Below, piece after piece: positions 19,069 through 56,546 of a stretch of 64,000 nucleotides of DNA; positions within the stretch are counted from its first letter, which is position 1, and each line of letters begins with the position of its first letter. Origin of the DNA: a virus. Location: the IMG/VR virus record IMGVR_UViG_3300014257_000015, positions 1 through 64,000 of that record. One strand, written 5' to 3'. The notes under the pieces were generated by a model. The model was not told the origin of the DNA and did not search any database. It worked only from the letters and a program-made list of their open reading frames with translations. A program made the translations under genes and the position numbers.

Positions 19069-21227
19069 TGCCCAACACTATAGTCACAATCCCTGATTTT
19101 GATTTCGCGGCCTATTACTACCCGCAGATTCTTGAAGCGTTGATCGCGTACAAGCGCCGAAACGTCCCTGAATTGACTGATGAGTCGGCATACGAACCGT
19201 ACACGCAGATGATGCGGATGATAGCGTTAGTGGGACACCTCAACAACGTCCTTCTCGATGTAGTGGCCAATGAATCAACACTAATAACGGCGAAGCTCGC
19301 TGAATCCGTACGCAACCACCTTCGGCTGATTGATTATGAGATGAACCCCGCTTCACCAGCATCAGTTGACGTGGTGTACGAGTTGTCAAAGGTCTTCACA
19401 GCACAATTCGAATTGATCAGCGCTGATGCCCAGGCGGCCACGCAACGTTCAGGGACAGACCCTGTAATCTATTTCGAGGCGCTAGAGCGGTTGCTAATCG
19501 ATCGTACTGATGAACATTCGTACGTGTTCGCCGAAGAGGATGGGGTGTTCGTGGATTACACGTCGGACGCCAACAGCGACTCTCCAACAGATGATTTTGA
19601 CCCTTGGGTTTCCCCTGGGGTGAAAGATGCTATTTATTGGGGGCATGCCCACGTAATGTGGGATACGCTCAGCGTGTTGATGACAGCTTACGGTTCAAAT
19701 TTCGAAGGGATATGGGAATACTTTGACGGCGATTGGAGTGATGTTTCTCCCACATCTGTAACAGACATCGGGGGCGGACAGCTTGAAATAGACCTCACCA
19801 GTTTGCTTGGGTCGGAAAACAGACAAGGCACACAAGTAAAAGTACAATACAACCCAACCACAGCATACGAGGTTGTCGAGGCAGAGTGGGACGGCTCGAA
19901 GAACAAAGCAACGAGCGGCCTATTAGGGCAAACGTCTCCATCAACCGATGTGGTGAATTATTCAATCGGCGTTCAATGGAAACAAGTGGAGATCGAAGAC
20001 AACGAAGTAGGCGACTTTACGGCAAATGGTGACTTGGAATATCTGCTACCACAGACGTTGCTCCAGAATTGGAGAACGACCGAAGTGAATGGCGTGACAG
20101 CATATTGGTTGCGTTATCGAATAATCACAATTTCCACACCAGTTTCGCCAACAATCCGTCGCACAAGGATGGACGGCGGGAAACAATACGCACTCAGAAG
20201 TTGCACACAAGGGCAATCACACTTAGACAGCCCGCTTGGTTCATCAACTGGACTAGCAAACCAACGCTTCCCGCTGTCGAAGGAGTATTTTGTCAGCGAA
20301 TCTGAGGAGGTATCGGTTGACGGAACCCTCTGGACAAGGGTTGAAAACTTCTTGGGGTCAGTGGCCACGGATAGACATTACACAATCGAACTGGGCGAGA
20401 ACGATCGAGCGACGGTTGTGTTTGGGGATGGCGTGAATGGGCGAATTCCGCCGCTTGGTGTTGGAAACATATCTGCTGATTATCGGTGGGGCGCCAATTA
20501 TGATGGAAACGTCGGAGCCAACACAGTCGTGGTGGACAAGACGGGATTAACATTCATCAACAAACTGTGGAATCCGAGACTAGGAACTGGATGGAGTGAA
20601 GCCCAGGGCGCCAATGAAGCAAGCCTTGAACGTGCTAAGATCGAGGGCCCAGCCAGCCTACGAACGAAAGACGTTGCTCTTGGGCCTGCTGATGTTGAAG
20701 TGTTGGCGCTGGCGTGGACTGATGAAGATGGAAGCTCGCCATTTGGACGAGCCAAATCATTTGAAGAAGGCTATGGGCCCAAGACCATAGAATTGGTGTT
20801 AGTGGCGAAGGGTGGCGGCGCAGCAACCTCATCGCAGATAGACAGCATCACAGAATACTTCAATGGCAACCAATTGGTTCACCCTCCTAAAACAAAACAC
20901 CTTGTCGCCAATCAAGAGGTCGTGGCTGTCAACTACACACCGAAGTTGATTGACATCGTTGCCACAGTGTACGGTGACGTTGACCAGACGGCCATATCCA
21001 CCCAACTTAGCCAGGTGCTTCAGCCCGATGCGTTGAAAGAGGATGGCGTGACATATGAGTGGCAATTCGGCGGTGACGTTCCGCTATCTCGTATCAACCA
21101 TGAGATATTCGCATCAGTTGACGGAATCACCAAGGTTGAAATATCTTCCCCGGCGGCAGACGTTGTTTTGGCGTCTCGGGAATTACCAAAAGCAAACACC
21201 ATCAGCATCACAGTTGTGACGCCATAG
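19068..21227 (+). CDS. baseplate assembly protein J-like (gp6-like)
   Basis: I use the ATG in the TGATG overlap with GGAGG upstream; a TTG one codon earlier is also in frame. Residues 1-100 (FDFAAYYYPQILEALIAYKR, MALVGHL-type helix and AKLAESVRNHLRLIDY) match the baseplate J family N-terminus. The central part includes the typical GxNGRIPPLG(VG) loop near residue 465 and an ASLERAKIEGPASLRTKDVAL motif near residue 520, the hallmark of gpJ proteins. The C-terminus carries the conserved VVAVNYTPKLIDIVATVYG strand. gpJ/gp6 dimers form the iris of the baseplate wedges. 719 residues is long for P2 gpJ and closer to T4 gp6. Confidence 0.85.
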   Translation: MPNTIVTIPDFDFAAYYYPQILEALIAYKRRNVPELTDESAYEPYTQMMRMIALVGHLNNVLLDVVANESTLITAKLAESVRNHLRLIDYEMNPASPASVDVVYELSKVFTAQFELISADAQAATQRSGTDPVIYFEALERLLIDRTDEHSYVFAEEDGVFVDYTSDANSDSPTDDFDPWVSPGVKDAIYWGHAHVMWDTLSVLMTAYGSNFEGIWEYFDGDWSDVSPTSVTDIGGGQLEIDLTSLLGSENRQGTQVKVQYNPTTAYEVVEAEWDGSKNKATSGLLGQTSPSTDVVNYSIGVQWKQVEIEDNEVGDFTANGDLEYLLPQTLLQNWRTTEVNGVTAYWLRYRIITISTPVSPTIRRTRMDGGKQYALRSCTQGQSHLDSPLGSSTGLANQRFPLSKEYFVSESEEVSVDGTLWTRVENFLGSVATDRHYTIELGENDRATVVFGDGVNGRIPPLGVGNISADYRWGANYDGNVGANTVVVDKTGLTFINKLWNPRLGTGWSEAQGANEASLERAKIEGPASLRTKDVALGPADVEVLALAWTDEDGSSPFGRAKSFEEGYGPKTIELVLVAKGGGAATSSQIDSITEYFNGNQLVHPPKTKHLVANQEVVAVNYTPKLIDIVATVYGDVDQTAISTQLSQVLQPDALKEDGVTYEWQFGGDVPLSRINHEIFASVDGITKVEISSPAADVVLASRELPKANTISITVVTP

Positions 21228-30135: not shown

Positions 30136-31602
30136 ATGGGGATAACGCTCAGCATAGACAATCGATATGTCACGATTCGAGGCGCTTCGCGAAAGACAAT
30201 GCGCCTCATTGAATCGCTCACCAGCTACTTTGTCGCTGGGTTCATGTATTCGCCCGCATTCCGTTCGAGACGGTGGGATGGCCGTGAACACCTCCTACGA
30301 TTCAGTATGACGCATGGATACCGAGCACCCATAGGATTGCTGTTAGATGTGGCAGCTGCCCTTCGCGGACAAGGGCTGGACTTTGACGTTGATGTTTCAA
30401 AACGATTGCTCCCTGACCACAGAATTGAGTACGACTGGAACAATGAAATCACGTTGAGAAAGTATCAGCGCGAAGCCATCGCTGCGATCACGAAACCGGG
30501 AATCACACGCGGTTCGGGAATCGTCAAGATGCCCATACGCAGCGGAAAAACAAAAACAGCGGCCGGAATAATCCGGGCACTCGGCGTTCGGGCCTTCTTC
30601 TTTGTGCCCAGCCAGATGCTATTGTACCAAACGCGTGCAGCCCTCGAAGAAGCGTTGATGACGGACATCGGGATGATCGGTGATTCTGAATGGAACGAAC
30701 GAGATGTCACTGTGGCCACGATACAAACCATCACGAAGGCCCGAGGTGGCAAACGTAAGGACAAGCTCGGGAAGACAAAAAAACTTCCGAGAGATCCCCG
30801 ATACAAAGATTTGATCAGACGATATCCCCTTGTGTTGTTCGATGAATGCCACCACCTACGCGGCGACGCATGGCACGACACCATGATGGATTTTGATTCG
30901 GCATACAGAATAGGACTCAGCGCCACAGCATTTTTGGACAATGTTCGTGAAAATGAGAGAGGCGCAATTTGGTTGAAGGCTTGTTGTGGACGAATTCGTA
31001 TTGACATCCCGACTTCGAGGTTGATTGATGAAGGGTATTTGATGAAGCAAAATGTTGAGCTTCATGTGGTGCGAGAACCCGACCTTCACGCACATGGATG
31101 GAGCCAAGCGCTTCACAATGCCGCCGTCTATGAGAATGACACCAGAAATGAAATGATTGCATCTTTGGCCAAAGAGAAGGTCGATGAAGGGTTGTTCACG
31201 CTCATCGTAAGCAATCGCCTGAATCAGATATCGAGACTGGCCGATGCTCTTGAACAACGCGGCGTTTCATACCATGTCATTACAGGCGATGACAAAATAC
31301 ACACCAGAGAAATGCGCGTTGAAGAATTCAAGACTGGCGACGTCAAGGTGTTGCTCGGCACTGTGTTCGGCGAGGGCATAGACATCCCAGAGGTTGAATG
31401 CGTGATCAACGCCGAAGGCGGGCGTGACATCAAAGCAACGGTTCAACGCATGCGAAATCTCACCCCGCACAAAGGCAAGGACCACGCTGTGTTCATCGAT
31501 TTCATGGACATGACGAACAAGTATTTTGCGCAGCACTCAAAAGATCGTCTCGAAACCTACCGCTCTGAACCTGCTTTTGACGTAAAAATAGTTCAACGGT
31601 AA
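30136..31602 (+). CDS. UvsW-like superfamily 2 DNA/RNA helicase
   Basis: The 488-residue protein contains, in order, the Q-motif-like segment ITLRKYQREAIAAI near residue 115, the Walker A variant KMPIRSGKTKTA near residue 132, the Walker B DECHH box near residue 236 (VLFDECHHLRGD), SAT in motif III (IGLSATAF), and motifs V/VI with LGTVFGEGIDIPEVE and QRMRNL. The N-terminal 90 residues match the small UvsW-type substrate-binding domain. UvsW unwinds branched replication and recombination intermediates and R-loops, and can switch origin-dependent to recombination-dependent replication. It stands just upstream of the putative origin, which suits that role. Confidence 0.85.
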   Translation: MGITLSIDNRYVTIRGASRKTMRLIESLTSYFVAGFMYSPAFRSRRWDGREHLLRFSMTHGYRAPIGLLLDVAAALRGQGLDFDVDVSKRLLPDHRIEYDWNNEITLRKYQREAIAAITKPGITRGSGIVKMPIRSGKTKTAAGIIRALGVRAFFFVPSQMLLYQTRAALEEALMTDIGMIGDSEWNERDVTVATIQTITKARGGKRKDKLGKTKKLPRDPRYKDLIRRYPLVLFDECHHLRGDAWHDTMMDFDSAYRIGLSATAFLDNVRENERGAIWLKACCGRIRIDIPTSRLIDEGYLMKQNVELHVVREPDLHAHGWSQALHNAAVYENDTRNEMIASLAKEKVDEGLFTLIVSNRLNQISRLADALEQRGVSYHVITGDDKIHTREMRVEEFKTGDVKVLLGTVFGEGIDIPEVECVINAEGGRDIKATVQRMRNLTPHKGKDHAVFIDFMDMTNKYFAQHSKDRLETYRSEPAFDVKIVQR

Positions 31603-31791: not shown

Positions 31792-32127
31792 ATGAAAAAG
31801 GTAGCATCGAGAGATGAAGTGAAATCACCCGATGCTCAGCCTGTACCCATCGAAAAAGCCTACGAAGAATTAACACACGCTGCTTATGCTGTATGGACAT
31901 TGCTGATGGTGATCGGCGATGACGTATTGGTTGGCGGTCGAACAGATTTAGCAAAACACATCGGGCACTCCCAGTCCAGAACCAATGAGATATTGCGCGA
32001 GTTAAAAAACAAGGGATACATCCAATTGATTGGTGGAGAATCGATAGGCGAACCTACCAAAATACAATTGGAACTGTTGGCAATGATCAGTGGTCGAAAC
32101 CATTTCGTGAGGCTTTCCGATGGTTGA
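31792..32127 (+). CDS. winged helix-turn-helix DNA-binding protein
   Basis: The start is the ATG after the inverted repeat; an upstream in-frame start would add seven residues. Residues about 25-90 fit a winged-helix fold: helix 1 (LTHAAYAVWTLLMVI), a short GDDVLVGG turn, helix 2 (RTDLAKHIG), recognition helix (SQSRTNEILRELKNKGYI), then the wing (QLIGGESIGEPTKI). This is the layout of MarR/GntR/Rep-type winged helices. At 111 residues it is a typical small phage regulator or origin-binding protein. Its adjacency to the CCAAT/ATTGG cluster makes those repeats candidate binding sites. That link is inference. Confidence 0.7.
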   Translation: MKKVASRDEVKSPDAQPVPIEKAYEELTHAAYAVWTLLMVIGDDVLVGGRTDLAKHIGHSQSRTNEILRELKNKGYIQLIGGESIGEPTKIQLELLAMISGRNHFVRLSDG

Positions 32128-32743
32128 TTGGAATGATAGAAGATACGCCAATCAACCATTCAATTCCCATAGTCTGTTGTATCAACTCCAATCGCATAAA
32201 ATACCAATCTATTGGTTTTCCAATCAAAAATTGGAATTCAAATTACACAAGACTATGGTTATAACGATTGGAGTGCTATTTCAAAACTCCAATCGCCATC
32301 AAAATTCACACTTTAACAATCGGTGGAAAATTAACAACAACTCCAATATGAAGTTACTGTGCAAACTGAACATTGCGTTATGTTATTTGTATGGCTATTT
32401 TTCACATCAGCAATTCGGTGGGAAATCATTCCACCATCATTCTGCGCACCTAGTGGCGGAGCGACTCGAATTTGAACAAGTTACATCTGGTGGACAACTC
32501 GAATACGATCACACAACTTTGTGTTCATCGAAGGCTGTTTCACAGCACATCTATAAACCCATATCTCATGCAAAAAGTGCAGTGAATTTTGCCACTTTCT
32601 CCAATTTTGCAAATTTTGTGTTTCCACCACACCACAACTCAAAATCGTACACAAGATGTTGTGTATTTTTAACAACTCTGGCATGTTCTGTAATTTATTT
32701 CTTGTATCACAGAAATATAAACACAAGAACATGGAAAGGATGA
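32120..32743 (+). CDS. AT-rich open frame of unknown nature, possible origin-containing gene
   Basis: An ATG with GAGG about seven bases upstream overlaps the stop of the winged-helix gene, and the frame stays open for 207 codons to a TGA six bases before the next gene. In such AT-rich DNA an open frame this long is improbable by chance, and the packing looks gene-like. The predicted protein, however, is odd: rich in Asn, His, Ser, Phe and Cys, poor in acidic residues, and with a hydrophobic end (LTTLACSVIYFLYHRN). DNA repeats inside it fall in different codon phases, so the DNA itself seems to be the selected feature. It may be a gene overlying an origin, as in lambda O, or a non-coding segment. 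Confidence 0.4.
   Translation: MVDWNDRRYANQPFNSHSLLYQLQSHKIPIYWFSNQKLEFKLHKTMVITIGVLFQNSNRHQNSHFNNRWKINNNSNMKLLCKLNIALCYLYGYFSHQQFGGKSFHHHSAHLVAERLEFEQVTSGGQLEYDHTTLCSSKAVSQHIYKPISHAKSAVNFATFSNFANFVFPPHHNSKSYTRCCVFLTTLACSVIYFLYHRNINTRTWKG
32127..32347. repeat. cluster of CCAAT/ATTGG pentamers with AACTCCAAT iterons, candidate origin
   Basis: Ten copies of CCAAT or its complement ATTGG lie in about 220 bases, at 32127, 32148, 32188, 32204, 32211, 32220, 32230, 32267, 32289 and 32343. Three of them extend to the direct repeat AACTCCAAT (32184, 32285, 32339), two sharing AACTCCAATCGC. A perfect 10-bp inverted repeat (CGATTGGAGT at 32265-32274, ACTCCAATCG at 32286-32295) has an 11-base loop, and ATTGG-TTTT-CCAAT makes a smaller one. 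AT-rich DNA with iterons, between a DNA-binding protein gene and helicase-loader genes, is the classic setting of a replication origin. Confidence 0.55.
32511..32664. repeat. paired ACACAA/TTGTGT palindromes
   Basis: Two related palindromes, ACACAA-CT-TTGTGT (32511-32524) and ACACAA-GATG-TTGTGT (32649-32664), lie in the same AT-rich region. Another TTGTGT is at 32616-32621. They could be operators for a dimeric regulator or part of the origin. Nearby, GGTGG and CCACC form a smaller inverted repeat at about 32417-32435. Confidence 0.4.
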
Positions 32744-32749
32744 ACGACT

Positions 32750-33931
32750 ATGGGTGGACAGTGTGGAAAGTCAAAAACTGGGAGTTTTTCCAGGTTGAAA
32801 TCGGTGGCAGCATTGGAATCCAAGATTGGAATGGCAATCTCCAAGCTGACAATTGGTGACGACGGAAAGTCATCAATAGTGTTAGTACGAACAAGGATTC
32901 CACCACCACCAACTGATTCTGAACAAGAAGAAGACGATCGAGAAGGCGACAAACCGAACCAACCATCAGTAACCAGCAAGGTTACTGGCACCGATAGCAG
33001 GCAGTCTATAGTTAGTAAAAATACGTCAAATCAACCAGAAAATACACTGGAACGAGAATTCAATCCAATACGTGGCCGGAAAACAGATAATGGGCAAAAA
33101 AAAATACCCCACCCTATTCATAAATATATAGATTCTTTATCTAGTAAAAACAGTTCAGGAAAAAAGAAAGTAAACCAATCAGAGAAAAACCAAAAAGGAA
33201 AGGAAACGGGGCAGGGCAAAAAAATTGGAATCAAGAATCTCGATTGGGACAAGATTGATTTGACTGGAAAGCCTGCGTTCAGATGGGACATGTGCGATGA
33301 AGACCGCGTGAAGGTGAAACACATACTCGCCCGCCCAGCACGTGATTGGGGTGCTCGCCAACTGACCAACAAGCTCACATCTGAGTTCAGGCGCTATTAC
33401 ACCAGGTACAGAATCGAGGTCTTGAAAGCCAAGGGATGTCAACCGCAAGGCTACACATTCATGGATCGTGAAGTGCGCTACGCTCGGCAATGCGCAATCC
33501 TATGCGTTGTGAAAGGCGTAACACCGCGACAGTTGCTTGAATACTGGCACGTCAACATTGGGAATTTTGCCGACAGGAAAATGAAGATCCCGCCCATTGC
33601 GTTCCTTGCTTGCCCAGCGAACATCGACTCAGTAGCCTGCGCCGTCGATGCACAGCAGGAAGAAGCGTGTAAAAAATGGCGTCCTGGAGACTTTACGCGC
33701 CAAGTCACAAATCACGGCTTCAGCGACGAGAGCACGCTTCACAAAGATCTGCGTCGGACCATCGAAGCGGCGGGCATTGACACTCGTGAGTATGACGACA
33801 GGTTCCTGCTTTCGGTGCAACATGCTGCCCGGGCGAAAGCTCGGGGGACAAGCATTTTTATCAGCAACACAATGAAACCAATGGTGAAAGCGGTTTTGAA
33901 GTTGTTTCGCGAGGTTGAGGATGAGGACTGA
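32750..33931 (+). CDS. putative replication initiator or origin-associated protein (393 aa)
   Basis: An AAGGA site precedes the ATG. Residues 1-165 are low complexity, rich in Lys, Ser, Asn, Gln and Glu, and probably disordered. From about residue 168 (LDWDKIDLTGKPAFRWDM) the sequence becomes compact, with a charged helical region (KHILARPARDWGARQL), several cysteines and a basic C-terminus. I recognise no family. It is the first gene after the putative origin and overlaps the helicase-loader gene by eleven bases. In many phages an initiator protein occupies this spot (initiator, loader, helicase), so an origin-binding role is plausible but unproven. Base composition of the N-terminal part is more AT-rich than that of its neighbours. 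Confidence 0.5.
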   Translation: MGGQCGKSKTGSFSRLKSVAALESKIGMAISKLTIGDDGKSSIVLVRTRIPPPPTDSEQEEDDREGDKPNQPSVTSKVTGTDSRQSIVSKNTSNQPENTLEREFNPIRGRKTDNGQKKIPHPIHKYIDSLSSKNSSGKKKVNQSEKNQKGKETGQGKKIGIKNLDWDKIDLTGKPAFRWDMCDEDRVKVKHILARPARDWGARQLTNKLTSEFRRYYTRYRIEVLKAKGCQPQGYTFMDREVRYARQCAILCVVKGVTPRQLLEYWHVNIGNFADRKMKIPPIAFLACPANIDSVACAVDAQQEEACKKWRPGDFTRQVTNHGFSDESTLHKDLRRTIEAAGIDTREYDDRFLLSVQHAARAKARGTSIFISNTMKPMVKAVLKLFREVEDED

Positions 33932-34646
33932 AACAGAGGTGGAGGAATTCAAGGCACAGGCCCAGGATGCGTACATCCTCAGATGCAAGGTGTGTGGCGG
34001 GGATGATCCGGCTTGTTCTTGTAATGTGAAATTTCGCATTGCTGTCGCGGCGTATGAGGCCGGGATACCAAGGCTATTTTGGAACAAAACGTCCAAAAAT
34101 GTCCGCCGTAACAAGAGCATCTTCAATGGTGTGGTGGCTCCATATGTTGAGCGTTTGAAGAAAGCGCGTCTTCACGGATATGGGTTGTTGTTCGTTGGGG
34201 ACAATGGAACTGGGAAGACAATGTTTGCGACGTATGTGTTGATGGAGGCGATACGCAAGGGATACACGGCATACTACACAACAATGCCACAATTGGATTG
34301 GGATATCAAGGCCGGATTCAAAGAGCACAAGGCCGAAGATCGGCTAAACTGGCTGTTGTCGTCTGACTTTGTGGCTATTGACGAAATGGGGAAAGAACGA
34401 CACGGGAAGAATCCCAACGACACATACTTGAACACCCAGGTGGAAAGGATTCTGAAGCAGCGATGTGATGACGATATGCCGTTACTGTTGGCCACGAACA
34501 TGAATACCAATGACCTGTTCGAGCACTATGGGCCGACTGTTGAGTCAATGGTGGGAGGAAAATTCCAGGTAGCGGCGTTGACACCGGGTGACTATCGAAA
34601 ACGACTTCAGAAGCAGATGCAAAAAGACATGGGATATGGCGAATGA
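33921..34646 (+). CDS. DnaC/IstB-like helicase loader (AAA+ ATPase)
   Basis: I use the ATG preceded by GAGG that overlaps the previous gene by eleven bases. An N-terminal cysteine cluster (CKVCGGDDPACSC, residues 22-34) may bind zinc. The AAA+ core follows: Walker A GDNGTGKT near residue 93, an AYYTTMPQLDWD segment, Walker B DFVAIDEMGKE near residue 152, and sensor 1 LLLATNMNTNDL. The layout equals DnaC, IstB and phage loaders, which place the replicative helicase on DNA. It overlaps the DnaB-like gene by four bases, supporting that partnership. Confidence 0.85.
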   Translation: MRTETEVEEFKAQAQDAYILRCKVCGGDDPACSCNVKFRIAVAAYEAGIPRLFWNKTSKNVRRNKSIFNGVVAPYVERLKKARLHGYGLLFVGDNGTGKTMFATYVLMEAIRKGYTAYYTTMPQLDWDIKAGFKEHKAEDRLNWLLSSDFVAIDEMGKERHGKNPNDTYLNTQVERILKQRCDDDMPLLLATNMNTNDLFEHYGPTVESMVGGKFQVAALTPGDYRKRLQKQMQKDMGYGE

Positions 34647-36028
34647 CAGTGAAGTTTGACAAGGATTTTGAAGAAGACGTGTTGGCCTGTGCGTTGCTTG
34701 ACACGGCGTATTTGAAATCAGCGTCGAGACTTTTGGAAGCTCACCACTTCCACTCAAAGCAGCACGGGTGGATTTGGTCAACGATGAAGAAAATATGGGA
34801 GGTGCACAAGGAACGCGCCACCGGGAAGTTGATTGTTGCGCACGCCCGTAGGGATTGGCCGGATGATGAAGAGCGCGAGACGGTGATCGAGCTGGCTCGC
34901 AAGGTGATCAAACTTCGTCCAGCCGCTGGCAAAGCGACGTTGGAAGAATTGGCGAAGTTTGTGAAATTCGCCTCTGCGCAAATGGCACTAGAGGCGAGCG
35001 CGAAGGCTTTGGAAAAGGGCGACGTTGATGATGCGTACAATGAGTTGCGTCGCTGCGTTCGCAAGAACATTGACCCGAAGGCGTACAGCCACATACCATG
35101 GTACGAGGGGTTGGCTGAACGAATGGCTGACCGCAAGTATCGCAAGGAACACCCAGAGGAATTCCCGCGCGTCCCTACTGGATTTGATAGATTGGATAGG
35201 ATATTGAGTGGCGGGTTGGAAATAGCTGAGATGGGTATGGTGCTCGGAACGACAGGAAAGGGGAAGTCAATCTGTCTCACCAACATGTGTTATTCTGGTG
35301 TTGTGAAAGGAATTCCATCGGCGTATTTTTCAATGGAAATGCCTGCGTCGCAAATTGGAATGAGACACGACGCACGCTGGCTGAAAATACCGTATCGCAA
35401 GCTGAAAGAATTCGATTTCACGAAGGTTGAGATTGATGAGATATCACGAAAGCGTCGCAGATTCAGAAAAAAATTCGAGAACATGCTTCACATCATCGCC
35501 ACCCCGCTGAGACAATGCACCCTCGATACCATCCGATTTGCCCTCGATGATCTGTATTCTGACTACAAGTTTCGCCCCAGGGCTGTTTACCTGGATTCAG
35601 CAGACCACATGAGCCCGATCACAATGGGTGCTCGCGAGGAATATCGCTTGCGCCAAGCCGCCGTGTACTGGGAAGTTGCTGACTGGTGCGGCGAAGAGGG
35701 GATTGCTGTGTGGACATCGACGCACGCCGGGCGTGATTGGGCTGATAAGATCGCTGAAGTTGAATCAGCGGGCGAAAGCTATGACAAGGCGCGAATTGTT
35801 GATGTGGCGTTTTCATTGAATCGACCAAAAAAGAAAACACGCTCGTCTGTTGTGACGGATGATGACGATGATGGCGAGGAAGTAAAATCACGCTGCAAGG
35901 GCGATTACATGGAGTTGCGATTGGGAAAGTATCGCGATGGAAAGAGCTTGATCACCATTCCAATCGATGCTGACTTTGCGATGATGCACATGTCTGAGAT
36001 CGAGGAAGATGAAGAGGAAGAAGCATAA
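34643..36028 (+). CDS. dnaB: replicative DNA helicase, DnaB-like
   Basis: The 461-residue protein has an N-terminal helical domain resembling the DnaB primase-interaction domain. The RecA-type core includes PTGFDRLDRILSGGLEI near residue 174, Walker A GTTGKGKS near residue 201, a SMEMP motif (YFSMEMPASQI, equivalent to the SLEM box) and a Walker B strand VYLDSADHM with the following AREEYRLRQ. The C-terminus is acidic (EIEEDEEEEA), which is unusual. DnaB helicases unwind DNA ahead of the fork as hexamers. Flanking loader and primase genes support the role. Confidence 0.85.
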   Translation: MTVKFDKDFEEDVLACALLDTAYLKSASRLLEAHHFHSKQHGWIWSTMKKIWEVHKERATGKLIVAHARRDWPDDEERETVIELARKVIKLRPAAGKATLEELAKFVKFASAQMALEASAKALEKGDVDDAYNELRRCVRKNIDPKAYSHIPWYEGLAERMADRKYRKEHPEEFPRVPTGFDRLDRILSGGLEIAEMGMVLGTTGKGKSICLTNMCYSGVVKGIPSAYFSMEMPASQIGMRHDARWLKIPYRKLKEFDFTKVEIDEISRKRRRFRKKFENMLHIIATPLRQCTLDTIRFALDDLYSDYKFRPRAVYLDSADHMSPITMGAREEYRLRQAAVYWEVADWCGEEGIAVWTSTHAGRDWADKIAEVESAGESYDKARIVDVAFSLNRPKKKTRSSVVTDDDDDGEEVKSRCKGDYMELRLGKYRDGKSLITIPIDADFAMMHMSEIEEDEEEEA

Positions 36029-37036: not shown

Positions 37037-37716
37037 GCAAAGTCAGATTGATTTTGGATGACGCCATCGCGGGCATCCAGCGGCTCGAAGATTCTAGTGT
37101 GGATTTGGTGCTGACAGATCCGCCGTATGAGTCGTTGGAAAAGTGGAGGGCGACGGGAACCACAACACGATTGCGCCATAGCAAGATGAGCTCGAATGAT
37201 TGGTTTGAAATCTTTCCGAACGAAAGATTCAATGGGCTGTTCGCCGAATGTTTTCGTGTGATGAAAACGGGTTCGCATTTATACATGTTCTGTGACGATG
37301 AAACCAGCGATATTGCGAAGGCAGAGATGGTGTCTGCTGGTTTTTGTGTTTGGAAACGGCTGGTGTGGGATAAGAGGGTGATTAGCACGGGCTATCACTA
37401 CCGAAACCAGCATGAGTTCATTTTGTTCGCAGAAAAGGGACACCGCAATCTGAATGACCGATCGATCCCGTCGATTTTGCGGTGCAAACGCATCGCGAAA
37501 GGGTACCCGGCTGAAAAGCCGGTTGAGCTTCAAAACATCCTCGTGTCACAGTCCGCTTCCGAGGGCGATGTGTTGCTGGATCCGTTTTGTGGTTCTGCGT
37601 CCAGCGGCGAAGCGGCGTTGAATTTTGGGCTAGACTATATTGGCGTGGATATCAGCGAGAAGGCATTGAAGATCGCTGTGAAGAGGCTAAAAGGCAAGGG
37701 CGCACGTGTCATTTAA
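37033..37716 (+). CDS. DNA methyltransferase, beta-class N6-adenine/N4-cytosine type
   Basis: Motif IV (TDPPY) lies near residue 28, ahead of the AdoMet-binding motif I (DPFCGSASSGEAA) near residue 182. A VELQNILV helix precedes it and DYIGVDISEKAL follows as motif II. Motif IV before motif I is the beta-class order. At 227 residues it is short, with little room for a target recognition domain beyond residues 40-150. Such orphan phage enzymes methylate phage DNA to evade host restriction. It overlaps both neighbours, so it is expressed with the primase. Confidence 0.85.
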   Translation: MSKVRLILDDAIAGIQRLEDSSVDLVLTDPPYESLEKWRATGTTTRLRHSKMSSNDWFEIFPNERFNGLFAECFRVMKTGSHLYMFCDDETSDIAKAEMVSAGFCVWKRLVWDKRVISTGYHYRNQHEFILFAEKGHRNLNDRSIPSILRCKRIAKGYPAEKPVELQNILVSQSASEGDVLLDPFCGSASSGEAALNFGLDYIGVDISEKALKIAVKRLKGKGARVI

Positions 37717-38725
37717 TGTGGCAGATTATGCTTCGTCGAAGCTTGAAGGCGTTCGGATAGGCGCAGGTGGCGAAATCAACGCTACGTGCCCGTTCTGTGG
37801 CAAGTCAGGTGGTTTTTACATCAACCCGAAGACTGGCGCGTACATCTGTCACAAGCTTCACTGTGATCAACGCGGTCGCACCATCGTCGGCCTCATCGCA
37901 CACGTTGAAGGGATTTCCAGGGCTGAGGCATACGGGTGGCTTTTCAAGGAGTCGGTGCGATGGTCAAGGCGTGAAGAGACGCCCGAGACGTTGCTAGACA
38001 AGATACGAGAATTGCGAGACATCGAAGGCGACGAAGAAGATGAGTTGGTGGAAGCGCCTTTGCCCGTCGGATTCAAGAGCGTATGGGATGCAAAAAAAGG
38101 ATGTTGGCGATACCCGAGTTATTTGAAGCAGCGTGGAATCAAAAAGAAAACGGCGAAAGAGTGGGGGATTGGATACTGTGACAAGGGCCGTTTCGGCGGT
38201 CGAATCATCATACCAATCGATTGTCCCAATGGACACAGCTTTACCGCAAGGGACGCGACAGGAGAACAACAACCCAAATACCTCAATCCAACTGGTGTTG
38301 ATCACGGGCGCCTTCTCCTCGGTTGGAATCAATGCGAATTGGATGGGGATGTGGTGTTGGTAGAGGGGCCGTTGGATGTGATCACGATGTGGCAGCACGG
38401 TATTTCTAGCATGGCATTGCTCGGGAAAGTGTTGCACCCAGCGCAACTCGCCATGTTGTTCAAAAAGCCTCTTGATTCTGCGATAACTGTCCTGTTAGAC
38501 CCAGATCAGCCAGCTGCCCCCTATGACGTGGCGAAACAATTGACATGTCGATTCGATCACGTGTATGTCGCTCGATTACCTGACGGGGTTGACCCTGGCG
38601 AATCGACGTTGGAGCAGGCGAAAAAAGCTGTGTCAAATGCAAAGAAATACAAGGGTGAGCGGAATCCAGCATTGATGGCTAGATTGGAATCGGTGCAGAA
38701 AAAATTGGAAAACATGTATGGGTGA
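37706..38725 (+). CDS. DNA primase with zinc ribbon and Toprim domain
   Basis: The GTG start overlaps the methyltransferase gene by eleven bases. An N-terminal zinc-binding domain (CPFCGKSGGFY and CHKLHC, residues 28-53) is of the DnaG/T7 gp4 CHC2 type. The Toprim core shows VEGPLDVITMWQHG near residue 218 and the LLDPDQPA acidic pair near residue 262. The protein is 339 residues with no helicase domain, so it is a stand-alone primase partnering the DnaB-like helicase. It makes RNA primers at the fork. The acidic linker around residue 110 is probably disordered. Confidence 0.85.
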   Translation: MSFNVADYASSKLEGVRIGAGGEINATCPFCGKSGGFYINPKTGAYICHKLHCDQRGRTIVGLIAHVEGISRAEAYGWLFKESVRWSRREETPETLLDKIRELRDIEGDEEDELVEAPLPVGFKSVWDAKKGCWRYPSYLKQRGIKKKTAKEWGIGYCDKGRFGGRIIIPIDCPNGHSFTARDATGEQQPKYLNPTGVDHGRLLLGWNQCELDGDVVLVEGPLDVITMWQHGISSMALLGKVLHPAQLAMLFKKPLDSAITVLLDPDQPAAPYDVAKQLTCRFDHVYVARLPDGVDPGESTLEQAKKAVSNAKKYKGERNPALMARLESVQKKLENMYG

Positions 38726-39259: not shown

Positions 39260-39595
39260 ATGTCGCAGAAAATCCAAATCAACGAAAAAGTCAGTCTGGT
39301 CATGAACCAATGGACGAAGCATAGCCGAAGCATCATAGTTGTGAGCCTACAAGACGGCTATTGGATTGAAATCAACGTTTCACAACACACTCGTTGGAAA
39401 GACAGCGCTCCAGAAGAAGTGAAGATCAATTGGCCAGCTATTGGCGGAACGACTGTTAAAAATACACAGGAGTTCATGTCATTGTTGTCGATAGCAGCAT
39501 TCGTGGCCACCAAAATTGAATCTATCAGCGAATGGAAAGAAGTTGAAAACATCGAAGAGATCTTTGGTACAAAGATTGGCGGCGAGGTGAAATGA
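39260..39595 (+). CDS. hypothetical protein (111 aa)
   Basis: The start follows AGGAGAATCGGCC. The protein is an alpha/beta polypeptide with SIIVVSLQDGYWIEINV strands and a helix around MSLLSIAAFVATKI. It has no recognised motif. It overlaps the CobS-like gene by four bases and is therefore probably co-translated with it. Confidence 0.6.
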   Translation: MSQKIQINEKVSLVMNQWTKHSRSIIVVSLQDGYWIEINVSQHTRWKDSAPEEVKINWPAIGGTTVKNTQEFMSLLSIAAFVATKIESISEWKEVENIEEIFGTKIGGEVK

Positions 39596-40755
39596 TGGGA
39601 AGTGTACGAAGTAGACTTGATTCGAAGGGGCGTGAGAAAGTCCAATGCATGGTCTGCAATGAATGGCACCATCGTTTGGATGTGCACCTTAGCAAGAAAC
39701 ATGGCATGAATGCGAAAGAGTACACAGTCAAGTATCGAGGCGCCCCGACAATCTCTGAAGCAGCGAAGGAAACAGCCCGTGCAGCGCAGATCAAGGCTGG
39801 TGAAGAGCGAAAAATCATTGCATCTGCTGACATGGGAACCGGGGAAGACCTGACATCATTCAGGATTGGTGTGGTGGTGTTGAATCGTCGAACAGCGCTT
39901 TCAGAGCAAGACAAAGCTCGAATCCCAAAACACGATGAGCGTTGGATACCTGGGAAGCGTGAGAAGGAACAAATGGAGTGCATTGCACTCGGCATTAGCA
40001 ATCGCGAAAACATCTTTATCTTCGGTCCGACGGGATGTGGAAAAACCACCATCATCGAAGAAATGGCTGCATTACTTGACCAACCATGTATTCGTGTACA
40101 GGCAAATCGCAAGTTGACCATCGAGGATTTCGTTGGCCAGCAATCACTTTCGGTCGTGGACAACCAACACGTCACAGAATGGCAAGACGGCGTTCTGACG
40201 CAAGCCATGAGAAACGGGTGGTGGATCGTGCTGGATGAAATCACCGGGGCCGAGGCAGGGATTTTGCTGCGACTTCAGGCTGTGCTTGAAGGGAAGCCAT
40301 TGGTGCTCACCGAGAACGGCGGCGAGATTGTAGAACCACACCAGCACTTCCGAATCATCGCTAGTGACAACACAAATGGCCGGGGGGATAACAGCGGGTT
40401 GTACGTTGGGACAAACTTGATGAATGAAGCAACGCTAGACAGATTTGGTGTTGTGATCAAGGCCGAATATCCTGACGCCGCGACAGAGAACAACATTTTG
40501 ACATCGAAGGGCGGCGTGCCAAAGGACACTGCGCGGAAGATGGTTGAGGTGGCGGTGCGGGTGCGCGAGGCGATGTCCAACGAGACGTGCTATTGCACAT
40601 TCAGCACTCGTCGATTGATTTCTTGGGCTGCGAAAGCGCAGCAACTGGGAAACGTACGTATGGCTGCGAAGATCTCAATAACAAACAAATTATCCCCCGA
40701 AGACGCCAAGTTTGTCGACGGTTTGATACAAAGATACTTCGGAGGAGACATCTGA
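39592..40755 (+). CDS. cobS: AAA+ ATPase, CobS/MoxR-like, with N-terminal C2H2 zinc finger
   Basis: Residues 19-37 form a finger with C19, C22, H32 and H37 (CMVCNEWHHRLDVHLSKKHG), followed by YTVKYRGAP, as in Ros/MucR-type fingers found on phage CobS homologues. The AAA+ core has Walker A FGPTGCGKTT near residue 145, Walker B WWIVLDEITGAE near residue 216, and a sensor segment RIIASDNTNGRGDN. CobS-type ATPases work with VWA partners (CobT) to insert metals or remodel substrates. The next gene is such a partner. In phages the substrate is unknown, because no corrin pathway accompanies them. Confidence 0.85.
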   Translation: MMGSVRSRLDSKGREKVQCMVCNEWHHRLDVHLSKKHGMNAKEYTVKYRGAPTISEAAKETARAAQIKAGEERKIIASADMGTGEDLTSFRIGVVVLNRRTALSEQDKARIPKHDERWIPGKREKEQMECIALGISNRENIFIFGPTGCGKTTIIEEMAALLDQPCIRVQANRKLTIEDFVGQQSLSVVDNQHVTEWQDGVLTQAMRNGWWIVLDEITGAEAGILLRLQAVLEGKPLVLTENGGEIVEPHQHFRIIASDNTNGRGDNSGLYVGTNLMNEATLDRFGVVIKAEYPDAATENNILTSKGGVPKDTARKMVEVAVRVREAMSNETCYCTFSTRRLISWAAKAQQLGNVRMAAKISITNKLSPEDAKFVDGLIQRYFGGDI

Positions 40756-40844
40756 TAAACCAATAGGTTTTGCCTTTGTGGCAACTTTTCTATTGACTTA
40801 TGCGGTGTCGCTCGGTTAGAGTCGCCGCATGATGAGGACCGGCC
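40756..40844 (+). promoter_or_regulatory. terminator-like hairpin followed by sigma70-type promoter with palindrome
   Basis: TTGCC-TTTGT-GGCAA (40770-40784) followed by CTTTTCT is a weak terminator-like hairpin. Directly after it, TTGACT (40793-40798) with an 18-base spacer and TAGAGT (40817-40822) forms a plausible sigma70-type promoter. An inverted repeat ATGCGG/CCGCAT (40800-40805 and 40825-40830) brackets the -10 region and could be an operator. The gap separates the CobS-like and CobT-like genes, so the VWA gene may have its own promoter. Confidence 0.5.
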
Positions 40845-42626
40845 ATGATCAGAAAAACAGGACACTTTGAAGCCATCGCCCGCGCCATGGCGAGGAATCA
40901 CCAGATCAAGGTGATCCCCTCTGGCGCCGAGTGTTTGACTGATGGCGAAAACATTCTGATCCCATTCAATTCAGATCACTTTGACGAGGCGAGTGCGAAT
41001 GTGTTACACGGCCTATTGGACCATGAAGTGGGCCATGTGAAAGAAGAACGTCGACACAAAGATGCTGGTCGCAAATCCCCGTTAGAAATATTGAAATCAG
41101 CGAAAAGCGACAAAGAACGATTGGTGTTTAATGCTTTCGAGGACATCAGGATTGAGCGTTCTGAATCACAGCAGTTCATTGGGGTGGCTGAGAATCTCGC
41201 TGCTGCAAGTCGGCACGAAATACAGCGATTCAAAGATAAATATGCCGCCGAAGGCGGATTGGTAAATGCGAATTTTTGGCACACGTTCGTCTGCGCCATT
41301 ATAGCAACAGCGCAAGGCGATGATGTTTCGTGGATCCCGAGCGAATACAACAAATACCTAGCTGTTGTGTCGGATGAAATTGCCGCATCGAATTCAACAT
41401 CATGGGGGCAAGAAACACACCAATTAGCGGTCAGCGTGGTGAAGAAGATCGAAAAATTCGCTGAAGAGCAGAAACAAAAACTCGAAGCAGAAGAAAAAGA
41501 AGACTCTGAAGATCTTTCAGCCTCGAAGCCGAGCGAAGGTGGCGATGAACAAGGGAAATCAAAGGCTGGCGGGTTGGAATCGGAAACACAGAAACAAGAC
41601 GACGGCGAGTTGATAAAAATCGAAGTTGCAGAAGGGGCATTAGGCGAATCGGATACAGCAGACATCAAAGATGAAACAAAAGAGCGAATCAAGGAGATGG
41701 TGCGAAGGGACATCGATCTCAACAACCGTTACATCCCGCACCCTGCAGCCGTAGCGAGAGACAAAGTCATCAAACCATTAGGTGACATAGTTGATTACAA
41801 CCGCTGTCGCGATATCGTTTCTGATCAGATAACAGGCCTTCGCGGAAAACTTCTTTCGCTCATTCGTTCCAGGCAACCATCGGTTGAATTGTCGGGGCGT
41901 CGTCACGGTAAATTGGACACTAGACGTCTGGGAACAATTGCTTCAGGAAACACCAATGTGTTCAAGGTTGAAATTGAAGGTGAGAAGCTGGACACAGCAA
42001 TCACTGTGCTGATTGACATGTCTGGTTCAATGGGCAGCGGGCATTGCCCAGGACACCCAGCACACCAAGCCAAATTGATGGCCATTGCGTTGGCAGAAAC
42101 CTTTGAAGCGCTCCAAATACCTTTTGAAGTGATTGGATTTGAAACTGATACACCAGAACGATGCGTTGGAAAAGAGGAAATAAGTGATGTGTATTCTCGG
42201 TATTCTCCGATGTTATACCATGAGTTCAAATCGTTCGATCAAAAGCACAGAACAGTAAAGCAACGGATGTCTGACATTGCCGGCTCTTTAGACAATGACG
42301 ACGGCGAGGCGCTTCTGTACGCTGCGAAGCGATTGATCCAACGTGAAGAATCGCGCAAAATCATGTTCGTTCTTTCAGACGGTTGCCCGGCCACCAGAGA
42401 TGCATCGCACGAAAGGCTAAATGGACACTTAGTCGAGGCCATCCAGCAGGCAGCATCATGGGGGATTGAGATGTTTGGAATAGGTGCATGCTCTGATCAC
42501 GTCGAACAGTTCTATACCAAGAAGTTCAACAGCAGTTGTATCGTAGTCAAGGACATCAAAACATTGGCAGTCGATGTGTACAAACTGATGCGCGATCGAC
42601 TCCTGTCGACGAATAGGAGTGTGTGA
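40845..42626 (+). CDS. cobT: CobT-like protein with HExxH motif and VWA (MIDAS) domain
   Basis: Residues 60-64 are HEVGH, a zinc-binding motif within the conserved CobT N-terminal region (VLHGLLDHEVGHVKEERR). A long acidic, low-complexity linker (about residues 205-260, EEKEDSEDLSASKPSEGGDE) follows. The C-terminal VWA domain has the MIDAS motif DMSGSMG near residue 391, a T/S site (FETDTPERC) and FVLSDGCPA. This matches the large chelatase subunit that couples to CobS-type ATPases. Phage homologues are known, but their substrate is not established. It may act as a metal-dependent remodelling or protease-like complex with the preceding ATPase. Confidence 0.85.
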   Translation: MIRKTGHFEAIARAMARNHQIKVIPSGAECLTDGENILIPFNSDHFDEASANVLHGLLDHEVGHVKEERRHKDAGRKSPLEILKSAKSDKERLVFNAFEDIRIERSESQQFIGVAENLAAASRHEIQRFKDKYAAEGGLVNANFWHTFVCAIIATAQGDDVSWIPSEYNKYLAVVSDEIAASNSTSWGQETHQLAVSVVKKIEKFAEEQKQKLEAEEKEDSEDLSASKPSEGGDEQGKSKAGGLESETQKQDDGELIKIEVAEGALGESDTADIKDETKERIKEMVRRDIDLNNRYIPHPAAVARDKVIKPLGDIVDYNRCRDIVSDQITGLRGKLLSLIRSRQPSVELSGRRHGKLDTRRLGTIASGNTNVFKVEIEGEKLDTAITVLIDMSGSMGSGHCPGHPAHQAKLMAIALAETFEALQIPFEVIGFETDTPERCVGKEEISDVYSRYSPMLYHEFKSFDQKHRTVKQRMSDIAGSLDNDDGEALLYAAKRLIQREESRKIMFVLSDGCPATRDASHERLNGHLVEAIQQAASWGIEMFGIGACSDHVEQFYTKKFNSSCIVVKDIKTLAVDVYKLMRDRLLSTNRSV

Positions 42627-55289: not shown

Positions 55290-56546
55290 ATGGCTATCGA
55301 CATGAAGAAGATGAAGAAACACAAAGAAGAACTGGCCACTGGCGGCGAGTTCCTCACATACCCATCGGGCGAGACGCGAATATACATCCACGGGCAATGT
55401 CGCCCTGATGATGAGACGCCACCCACCGCTGGATTCCCTTGGGTTCCTATCACTGTTCATTTCAATGTTGGCAAGAACAATGCGATGTGTGTTTGCCTTG
55501 ACAAGAACAGAAACGAGATTTTGAAACACCCGTATTTGAAGGGAATGTTGAAGGCGCGAAAGAATGCGCCGAAGCTCGATGGGACGTGCCCTGTTTGTGA
55601 AGAGATTGAAAACGGCGGGATGGATTCCGAGGAAGCCACAGAAGCTCGCCCACAGACGAAGTGGTTGTGGGGAACAACCAAAATCGCGTCGCGTGGCAAA
55701 GGTGATGATGATTGGAATGCGCAATCATTCAAGCCGGGCGTGACGATGGCTAACAAGACCATACACACCGGATTCATCGACATTTTCGACCAGGCTGGCG
55801 ATGTTACGGATGTGCAAGAAGCCACGTTGGCCATTGTTGGACGAGAGGGGAAAGGGAAAAATGACACCAAGTACAAGGTGTCTGTTGATGTTCCAACGAT
55901 AAAGAGTCCATTGAAATTGGACAAGAAATGTCGTGGCGCTTTGAAAGTCGCTATGAGCGAGGGCGGCGATTGTGATTTGTTCAAGATCGCGGCAAATATG
56001 ATCAAATCACCGGCCGAAATCAGAGCAATGCTGACTGGTGTAAAAATGGAAGACCCTGATGATGACGATGACGACGAGGCTGAGTTGGAAGAGTCGTTGA
56101 AGAAGGGGAAAAAATCGCGCATCATCGACGATGACGACGATGATGAAGACGAGCCGCCTAAGAAGTCAAAGAAAAAGGTCGTTGTCGATGAAGATGACGA
56201 CGATGACGAAGACGAAGACGAGCCGCCTAAGAAGTCAAAGAAAAAAGCCGTTGTCGACGATGAAGATGACGACGAAGACGAAGACGAACCGCCGAAAAAG
56301 TCAAAGAAAAAAGCCGTTGTCGATGATGACGATAATGATGATGAAGACGATGAAGACGATGAAGACGATGAAGACGATGATGAACCGCCGAAGAAGTCAA
56401 AGAAAAAAGCCGTTGTCGAAGACGACGATGACGATGACGAACCACCTAAGAAGTCCAAAAAGTCAAAGAAAAAGGATGAAAGCGACGAGCTAGACGATTT
56501 GGACGACGAGCTGGAAAGAATCACGAAATCAAAGAAGGGGAAGTGA
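55290..56546 (+). CDS. T4 gp32-like single-stranded DNA-binding protein with repetitive acidic/Lys tail
   Basis: An AAAGGAG site precedes the ATG. Residues 1-235 form the DNA-binding core, with a basic N-terminus (DMKKMKKHKEE), aromatic strands (FPWVPITVHFNV) and a CPVC cluster near residue 100 as in gp32-like zinc-containing SSBs. A strand WLWGTTKIASRG and a terminal FKIAANM helix follow. From about residue 255 the tail alternates acidic blocks with EPPKKSKKK repeats (five copies at roughly 20-27 residue intervals). Acidic tails recruit other replisome proteins. The tail here is far longer than in known SSBs and carries the Lys blocks as well. Confidence 0.75.
   Translation: MAIDMKKMKKHKEELATGGEFLTYPSGETRIYIHGQCRPDDETPPTAGFPWVPITVHFNVGKNNAMCVCLDKNRNEILKHPYLKGMLKARKNAPKLDGTCPVCEEIENGGMDSEEATEARPQTKWLWGTTKIASRGKGDDDWNAQSFKPGVTMANKTIHTGFIDIFDQAGDVTDVQEATLAIVGREGKGKNDTKYKVSVDVPTIKSPLKLDKKCRGALKVAMSEGGDCDLFKIAANMIKSPAEIRAMLTGVKMEDPDDDDDDEAELEESLKKGKKSRIIDDDDDDEDEPPKKSKKKVVVDEDDDDDEDEDEPPKKSKKKAVVDDEDDDEDEDEPPKKSKKKAVVDDDDNDDEDDEDDEDDEDDDEPPKKSKKKAVVEDDDDDDEPPKKSKKSKKKDESDELDDLDDELERITKSKKGK

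Follow-up and report, generated by a model that had tools for sequence, protein, structure and literature searches.

A probable replication origin between the two parts of a split initiator in an uncultivated phage

The locus around a dense cluster of CCAAT/ATTGG pentamers (32127–32347) is very probably the replication origin of the uncultivated phage that carries it. The window, the whole 64,000-nt stretch analysed here, comprises positions 1–64,000 of IMG/VR record IMGVR_UViG_3300014257_000015; the complete record (G000, the window plus L012–L014) is that of a 105-kb uncultivated phage. The pentamers are predicted, and on balance expected, to be binding sites of the phage's initiator. Comparison with relatives indicates that the two proteins encoded on either side of the cluster, a 111-aa winged-helix protein and a 393-aa protein, correspond to two halves of that one initiator, the first to its N-terminal, DNA-binding half and the second to its C-terminal half. 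A sequence-only reading had nominated the cluster as a candidate replication origin, a proposal now supported by the record-wide skew minimum, by the skew of nine of 11 related phages and by the AT-richness of the syntenic place. The features of the locus are collected in Table 1.

Table 1 Features of the candidate origin locus (positions of the window)
Feature	Coordinates	Strand	Remarks
UvsW-like DNA helicase, last gene on the low-skew side	30136..31602	+	phrog_16 E=9e-70; ResIII, Helicase_C
Putative N-terminal initiator half: winged-helix DNA-binding protein, 111 aa	31792..32127	+	HTH_24 E=2e-5; phrog_186 DnaD-like E=5e-4
Upstream extension of the cluster: 5 CCAAT/ATTGG, including CCAATTGATTGG at 32022–32033	31926..32071		Inside the winged-helix gene
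207-codon stop-free frame over the cluster	32120..32743	+	Same frame as the 393-aa gene, one TGA between
Inverted repeat, perfect 12 bp, ATGGTTGATTGG / CCAATCAACCAT	32120–32131 / 32148–32159		16-nt spacer; holds the winged-helix stop codon
Core cluster: 10 CCAAT/ATTGG, 3 AACTCCAAT, palindrome CCAATCTATTGG at 32204–32215	32127..32347		Candidate initiator-binding sites
Inverted repeat, perfect 10 bp, CGATTGGAGT / ACTCCAATCG	32265–32274 / 32286–32295		11-nt loop
Second motif: six ACACAA/TTGTGT (~0.2 expected), AT-rich DNA	32511..32727		Candidate part of the unwinding region
AT-rich tract past the cluster into the low-complexity N-terminal part of the 393-aa gene	32580..33230		Candidate duplex-unwinding element (inferred)
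Putative C-terminal initiator half, 393 aa	32750..33931	+	~155-aa disordered linker, then conserved all-helical domain of ~235 aa
DnaC-like helicase loader	33921..34646	+	phrog_50 E=5e-24; overlaps the 3′ end of the 393-aa gene
DnaB-like replicative helicase	34643..36028	+	phrog_19 E=5e-53
DNA primase	37706..38725	+	phrog_47 E=1.5e-48

The ten pentamers reported by the sequence-only reading are all present within these 221 nt. Its expectation of about 0.4 pentamers, derived from uniform composition, was too low, but the excess holds: local dinucleotide-preserving shuffles gave 1.15 ± 1.0 pentamers per 221 nt and reached ten or more in 0/2000 trials, the window's own CCAAT rate predicts 1.1, and the next-richest 221-nt segment of the 64 kb holds six. 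Longer words are concentrated further, with four CTCCAAT against 0.05 and six CCAATC against 0.25 in dinucleotide shuffles. The three AACTCCAAT copies claimed earlier were found as exact matches at 32184, 32285 and 32339, within 164 nt, and both copies of the CCAATNNATTGG palindrome in the 105-kb record sit here, at 32022 and 32204. GATTGGAAT-like nonamers number 10 in the window's linker, compared with 5.2 in shuffles. Pentamers also occur upstream within the winged-helix gene (15 in total in 31926–32347) and downstream of the cluster at 32812–32856. Their spacing is irregular and their orientations are mixed, so they form no classical tandem iteron array, and the earlier term "iterons" describes them only loosely. 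The perfect 10-bp inverted repeat with its 11-nt loop exists as described, but is outdone by a perfect 12-bp one. The claim that the repeats fall in different codon phases is only partly right for AACTCCAAT, whose copies start at 0, 2 and 2 mod 3, whereas the ten pentamers do cover all three phases.

The same counts bear on the idea that the cluster is a functionless crest of a genome-wide CCAAT bias, produced by codon usage favouring TTG-G contexts. CCAAT/ATTGG is indeed the most over-represented pentamer of the record under a maximal-order Markov model (the effect is mild), which is not so in three near-full relatives, and a second, larger CCAAT-rich region lies elsewhere in the record. Against such a bias stand the roughly one pentamer expected from both shuffles and the window's rate, and the concentration in the cluster of the three AACTCCAAT copies and both CCAATNNATTGG palindromes; we consider this explanation very improbable.

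The second CCAAT-dense stretch, at 83.5–84.9 kb of the same record and outside the window (L012:19502-20000, L013:1-940), holds 28 pentamers in 1.4 kb, with five CTCCAAT in 84050–84310. It is apparently mostly non-coding, lies upstream of an endolysin gene, coincides with the skew maximum of the record and is almost diametrically opposite the first cluster; it is possibly a terminus, a packaging site or a second origin. With this region, the genome has more than one dense CCAAT cluster. Rfam gave sub-threshold chance matches only for the first cluster and none for the second region, and a tRNA search found none; a tRNA-like appearance near 84.3 kb was checked and proved unsupported. Repeats of another kind, very dense GAAGACGA/GACGATGA copies in low-complexity acidic coding sequence, occupy 56,050–56,500, and similar CATCGTC arrays are present in several relatives.

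The AT-rich setting noted earlier was borne out. The cluster has a GC content of 33.5% and stands at the start of the lowest-GC 300-nt segment of the 105-kb record (32126–32425; 34.3% vs 49.8% for the genome). Further 300-nt GC minima lie at 32551 and 33001, and AAAAA is enriched at 33011–33231 within the AT-rich tract.

All genes at the locus run rightward, in the order UvsW-like helicase, winged-helix protein, cluster, 393-aa protein, DnaC-like loader and DnaB-like helicase, with a primase later. The winged-helix protein yields a predicted model with pLDDT 82, and its nearest solved folds are MarR/ArsR winged helices. The 393-aa protein, whose ATG is preceded by AAAGGA, had no match in Pfam, PHROG or PDB; its C-terminal domain is predicted to be all-helical (pLDDT 78), and a fold search with this domain was likewise without a match. 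The DnaC-like loader is 43–57% identical to the loaders of relatives. The stop-free frame over the cluster is long for chance (a 621-nt forward frame arose in 10/20000 Markov simulations), but its codon usage is not gene-like, and it is likely a remnant or residual linker coding. Farther right, at 39592–42626, lies a gene pair resembling CobS (AAA+ ATPase, phrog_249) and CobT (phrog_17276), annotated in phages as porphyrin or cobalamin biosynthesis.

The relation between the two flanking proteins emerged from related phages. The family was opened by a UvsW scan of IMG/VR, which yielded L001/L002, and was extended first by aligning two loader sequences and afterwards by aligning the C-terminal domain. 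L001/L002 have the same gene order, with the counterparts of the winged-helix and 393-aa proteins joined by a long linker in one 552-aa ORF. Six relatives (L002, L007, L008, L042, L046 and L047) encode the initiator as a single protein of 478–620 aa, consisting of a winged helix, a long linker and the conserved C-terminal domain, followed by the DnaC-like loader and DnaB. The C-terminal domain is conserved in 11 phages, with 23 invariant columns in seven sequences, and loader and DnaB follow the initiator in that order in every relative read that extends so far. Given this fused architecture, the window's cluster starts exactly at the boundary between the DNA-binding domain and the linker of a two-domain initiator. 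The sequence-only reading needs refining here: the winged-helix and 393-residue proteins appear to be halves of one initiator rather than a regulator plus an initiator. Five members (L002, L007, L046, L048 and L010) delimit a phage family of ~104–116 kb that shares UvsW, the two-domain initiator, the DnaC-like loader and DnaB. INPHARED phages yielded no match to the 393-aa initiator half and only distant ones to DnaB (24–25%); when IMG/VR was scanned with single proteins, neither the 393-aa protein nor the winged-helix protein nor DnaB gave any match, and a bacterial-genome scan with the loader returned weak, distant matches only, by which no host could be assigned.

The initiator is split in the window's phage, in L006, in L009/L010 and in L048, and in L050 the repeat array coincides exactly with an overlap of the two initiator ORFs, which are in different frames. 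In the window the interruptions are the stops at 32125–32127 and 32741–32743. Alternatively, the split in the window could stem from faulty assembly or sequencing, or the gene could be dead, with the cluster serving as in-frame coding of a fused initiator; this would leave the origin reading unaffected. Two points favour this view: six relatives are fused, and the 207-codon frame, rarely so long by chance, lies in the same phase as the 393-aa gene with a single stop codon between the two. However, at least three relatives show a split or a change of frame at this very boundary, codon usage in the frame does not look like that of a gene, and the ATG of the 393-aa ORF is preceded by an AAAGGA of its own. 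We regard an artefactual split as rather unlikely.

If the linker contains the origin, relatives may carry signals at the same place. At least five of the 11 phages have repeats in the linker, each its own. In L007, five copies of CCTAGATCC occupy 20,859–20,933 of G004 and are absent elsewhere in its genome, where the skew minimum lies at 20,938. The linker of L050 contains a 21-bp repeat four times, that of L008 a 30-bp repeat twice and that of L046 short AT-rich repeats, while the linkers of G001, G009 and G011 show no clear array. No repeat word is common to all 11 linkers: TTGGAW occurs in 11/11 but is a frequent word throughout the records (joint background probability 0.015); CCCCTTGGA and CCCCTCCCC are found in 3/11. 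Different repeats in the same place would fit each initiator co-evolving with its own sites. Counting against an origin are the second CCAAT-dense region of the record, the irregular spacing of the pentamers, the lack of an iteron common to the relatives and the linkers in which no clear array is seen.

Linker position, GC content and cumulative GC skew were measured in 11 phage records with a syntenic linker, oriented alike; circular maps are backed by short terminal repeats in 4/11. Linker GC falls within the lowest 4% of same-length segments in 10/11 records and at 9.5% in G013. The lowest 300-nt segment touching the linker is the record minimum in 3/11 and within the lowest 0.4% in 8/11. 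In the window's record, the whole-record GC-skew check named by the sequence-only reading placed the cumulative minimum at position 33,882. The centre of the linker region, which begins with the cluster, is 1.2 kb from there, and the maximum, at 83,448, is about half a genome away. The whole-record minimum lies less than 3 kb from the linker in nine of the 11 phages, where 0.86 would be expected under uniform placement (tail 3e-9); the offsets from the linker centre are +1.2 (window), +2.7, +0.24, +0.8, +2.8, +0.5, +0.16, −1.9 and +0.8 kb. G007, a near-full relative, shows no skew signal at the linker, and G003 is a fragment ending just past the locus and is uninformative for the skew minimum. 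A two-arc skew model outperformed block permutation in the window's record (0/300 permutations did as well), in G001 (p=0.007) and in G004 (p=0.027).

Processes other than replication could also produce such a pattern: the skew step could reflect the transition from late structural to early replication modules, and the AT-rich DNA of the linker could be Lys/Asn/Ser-rich disordered coding with slippage repeats. Judged by the position of TerL, near which the structural module starts, the low-skew arcs in G000 and G001 approximately follow the division between structural and replication modules, and the linker sequence is of the disordered type. Because module transcription could confound skew, UvsW was compared with loader plus DnaB, replication genes on the two sides of the linker. 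In the window's phage the skew is 0.045 for UvsW and 0.197 for loader plus DnaB, and it rises between them in 10/11 phages, from 0.118 to 0.184 (all sites; Wilcoxon p=0.010). At 4-fold degenerate sites the G fraction increases from 0.50 to 0.57 (p=0.019). The skew step is thus at the linker and not merely at a module boundary; this comparison is the best control, short of proof. A whole-record fit to 4-fold sites alone places the step at 32–36 kb in the window's phage, whereas the best arcs of G001, G004 and G007 start away from the linker, so that the case from skew depends chiefly on the values for all sites and on the paired gene test. Gene orientation as the source of the skew was rejected, as ORFs run mostly one way (83–100% of long-ORF bases) and the step is also present at 4-fold sites. 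Moreover, the window's cluster lies mostly outside the annotated halves, in a frame that is not gene-like, and slippage does not give pentamers in all phases and both orientations. Module structure and disordered coding together are consequently quite unlikely to account for the locus.

A further possibility is that the cluster is an operator/promoter region at which the winged-helix protein acts as an autoregulator on the CCAAT sites and controls the replication operon, the origin being elsewhere. The resemblance of its fold to MarR/ArsR regulators and the position of the sites, just 3′ of the winged-helix gene and 5′ of the replication genes, would suit this role. However, promoter-like and terminator-like matches are at shuffle level, six relatives fuse the winged helix to the loader-adjacent domain, which a pure regulator leaves unexplained, and the skew minimum follows the linker site across phages. 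An operator with the origin elsewhere is hence decidedly unlikely, and a pure promoter/operator region was rejected, since consensus matches are no commoner than in shuffles; the locus may nevertheless combine an origin with autoregulation.

Based on these findings, we propose a plausible mechanism for initiation at this locus. First, the winged-helix protein would bind the CCAAT/CTCCAAT sites, probably as dimers on inverted pairs, and the AT-rich DNA to the right (about 32.35–33.2 kb) would open. The 393-aa half, presumably acting together with the winged-helix half as two proteins, would then bridge to the neighbouring DnaC-like loader, which would place the DnaB-like helicase. Bidirectional theta replication would follow. 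In the relatives, the origin would lie inside the coding sequence of a one-protein initiator, and in the window's phage the gene would be split at the origin.

This layout is reminiscent of that of lambdoid phages, whose origin lies in the middle of gene O and combines O-binding iterons with an AT-rich tract, with gene P adjoining (PMC7466680). Here, the cluster starts where the winged-helix domain ends; the arrays of L007, L008 and L050 occupy the same linker between the initiator's N- and C-terminal domains; the window's linker is the lowest-GC place of its record, like the AT-rich tract beside the lambda repeats; and a loader gene follows directly downstream, although of the DnaC type and not the P type. 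The N-terminal DNA-binding half of lambda O is a winged helix, as in the window's phage, where the match is generic and not O-specific, and lambda P is not known to be a DnaC-type AAA+ ATPase. Unlike lambda, the window has irregular pentamers and nonamers in place of regular tandem iterons (regular arrays occur only in some relatives), an initiator split in two genes, a DnaB and a primase of the phage's own, and a C-terminal domain without a known relative. Searches for O-family homology gave only phrog_345 at E=0.02 for the window protein and none for L002, with no match to a Pfam O family. The layout is that of a lambda-type origin; since the initiator is not a lambda O homologue by sequence, we call the locus a putative variant of the initiator-embedded origin.

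Two other systems invite comparison. The lytic origin oriL of phage P1 lies within the initiator gene repL and has an AT-rich region needed for replication (PMC9948254). To that extent the candidate locus resembles P1 as an initiator-embedded origin with an AT-rich region, but no homology to RepL was seen in the window's phage. The gene order of P1 also differs from the arrangement of a DnaC-like loader and a DnaB-like helicase. DnaD-like and RepA-type initiators share the winged-helix N-terminal domain, reflected in the weak phrog_186 match (Table 1) and in a fold match to 4pql (TM 0.52), which we take to be the N-terminal domain of a staphylococcal plasmid RepA. However, the phrog_186 match is confined to residues 27–79 and to the N-terminal part of that profile, a C-terminal domain of the DnaD type was not found, and these fold matches are generic for winged helices.

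The features that set this locus apart most are the apparently natural and recurrent splitting of the initiator at the probable origin and the undescribed C-terminal domain. We tentatively suggest, while leaning towards doubt, that a lambda-type initiator has come apart, exactly at its embedded origin, into two proteins that are translated separately, which would free the origin from coding and assign site recognition and loader recruitment to different polypeptides. Such fission would have recurred within one family (the window's phage, L006, L009/L010 and L048), with the overlapping frames of L050 as an intermediate.

To our knowledge, the origins of uncultivated large phages have almost never been located. 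The comparative argument places the origin to within ~1–2 kb in a phage family with records up to ~116 kb and links it with an initiator whose C-terminal domain is undescribed; in this family an initiator-embedded origin goes together with a loader of the DnaC type. Fused and split initiators side by side offer a natural experiment on two questions: must an origin be coding DNA, and do the DNA-binding and loader-recruiting parts of an initiator need to be one polypeptide?
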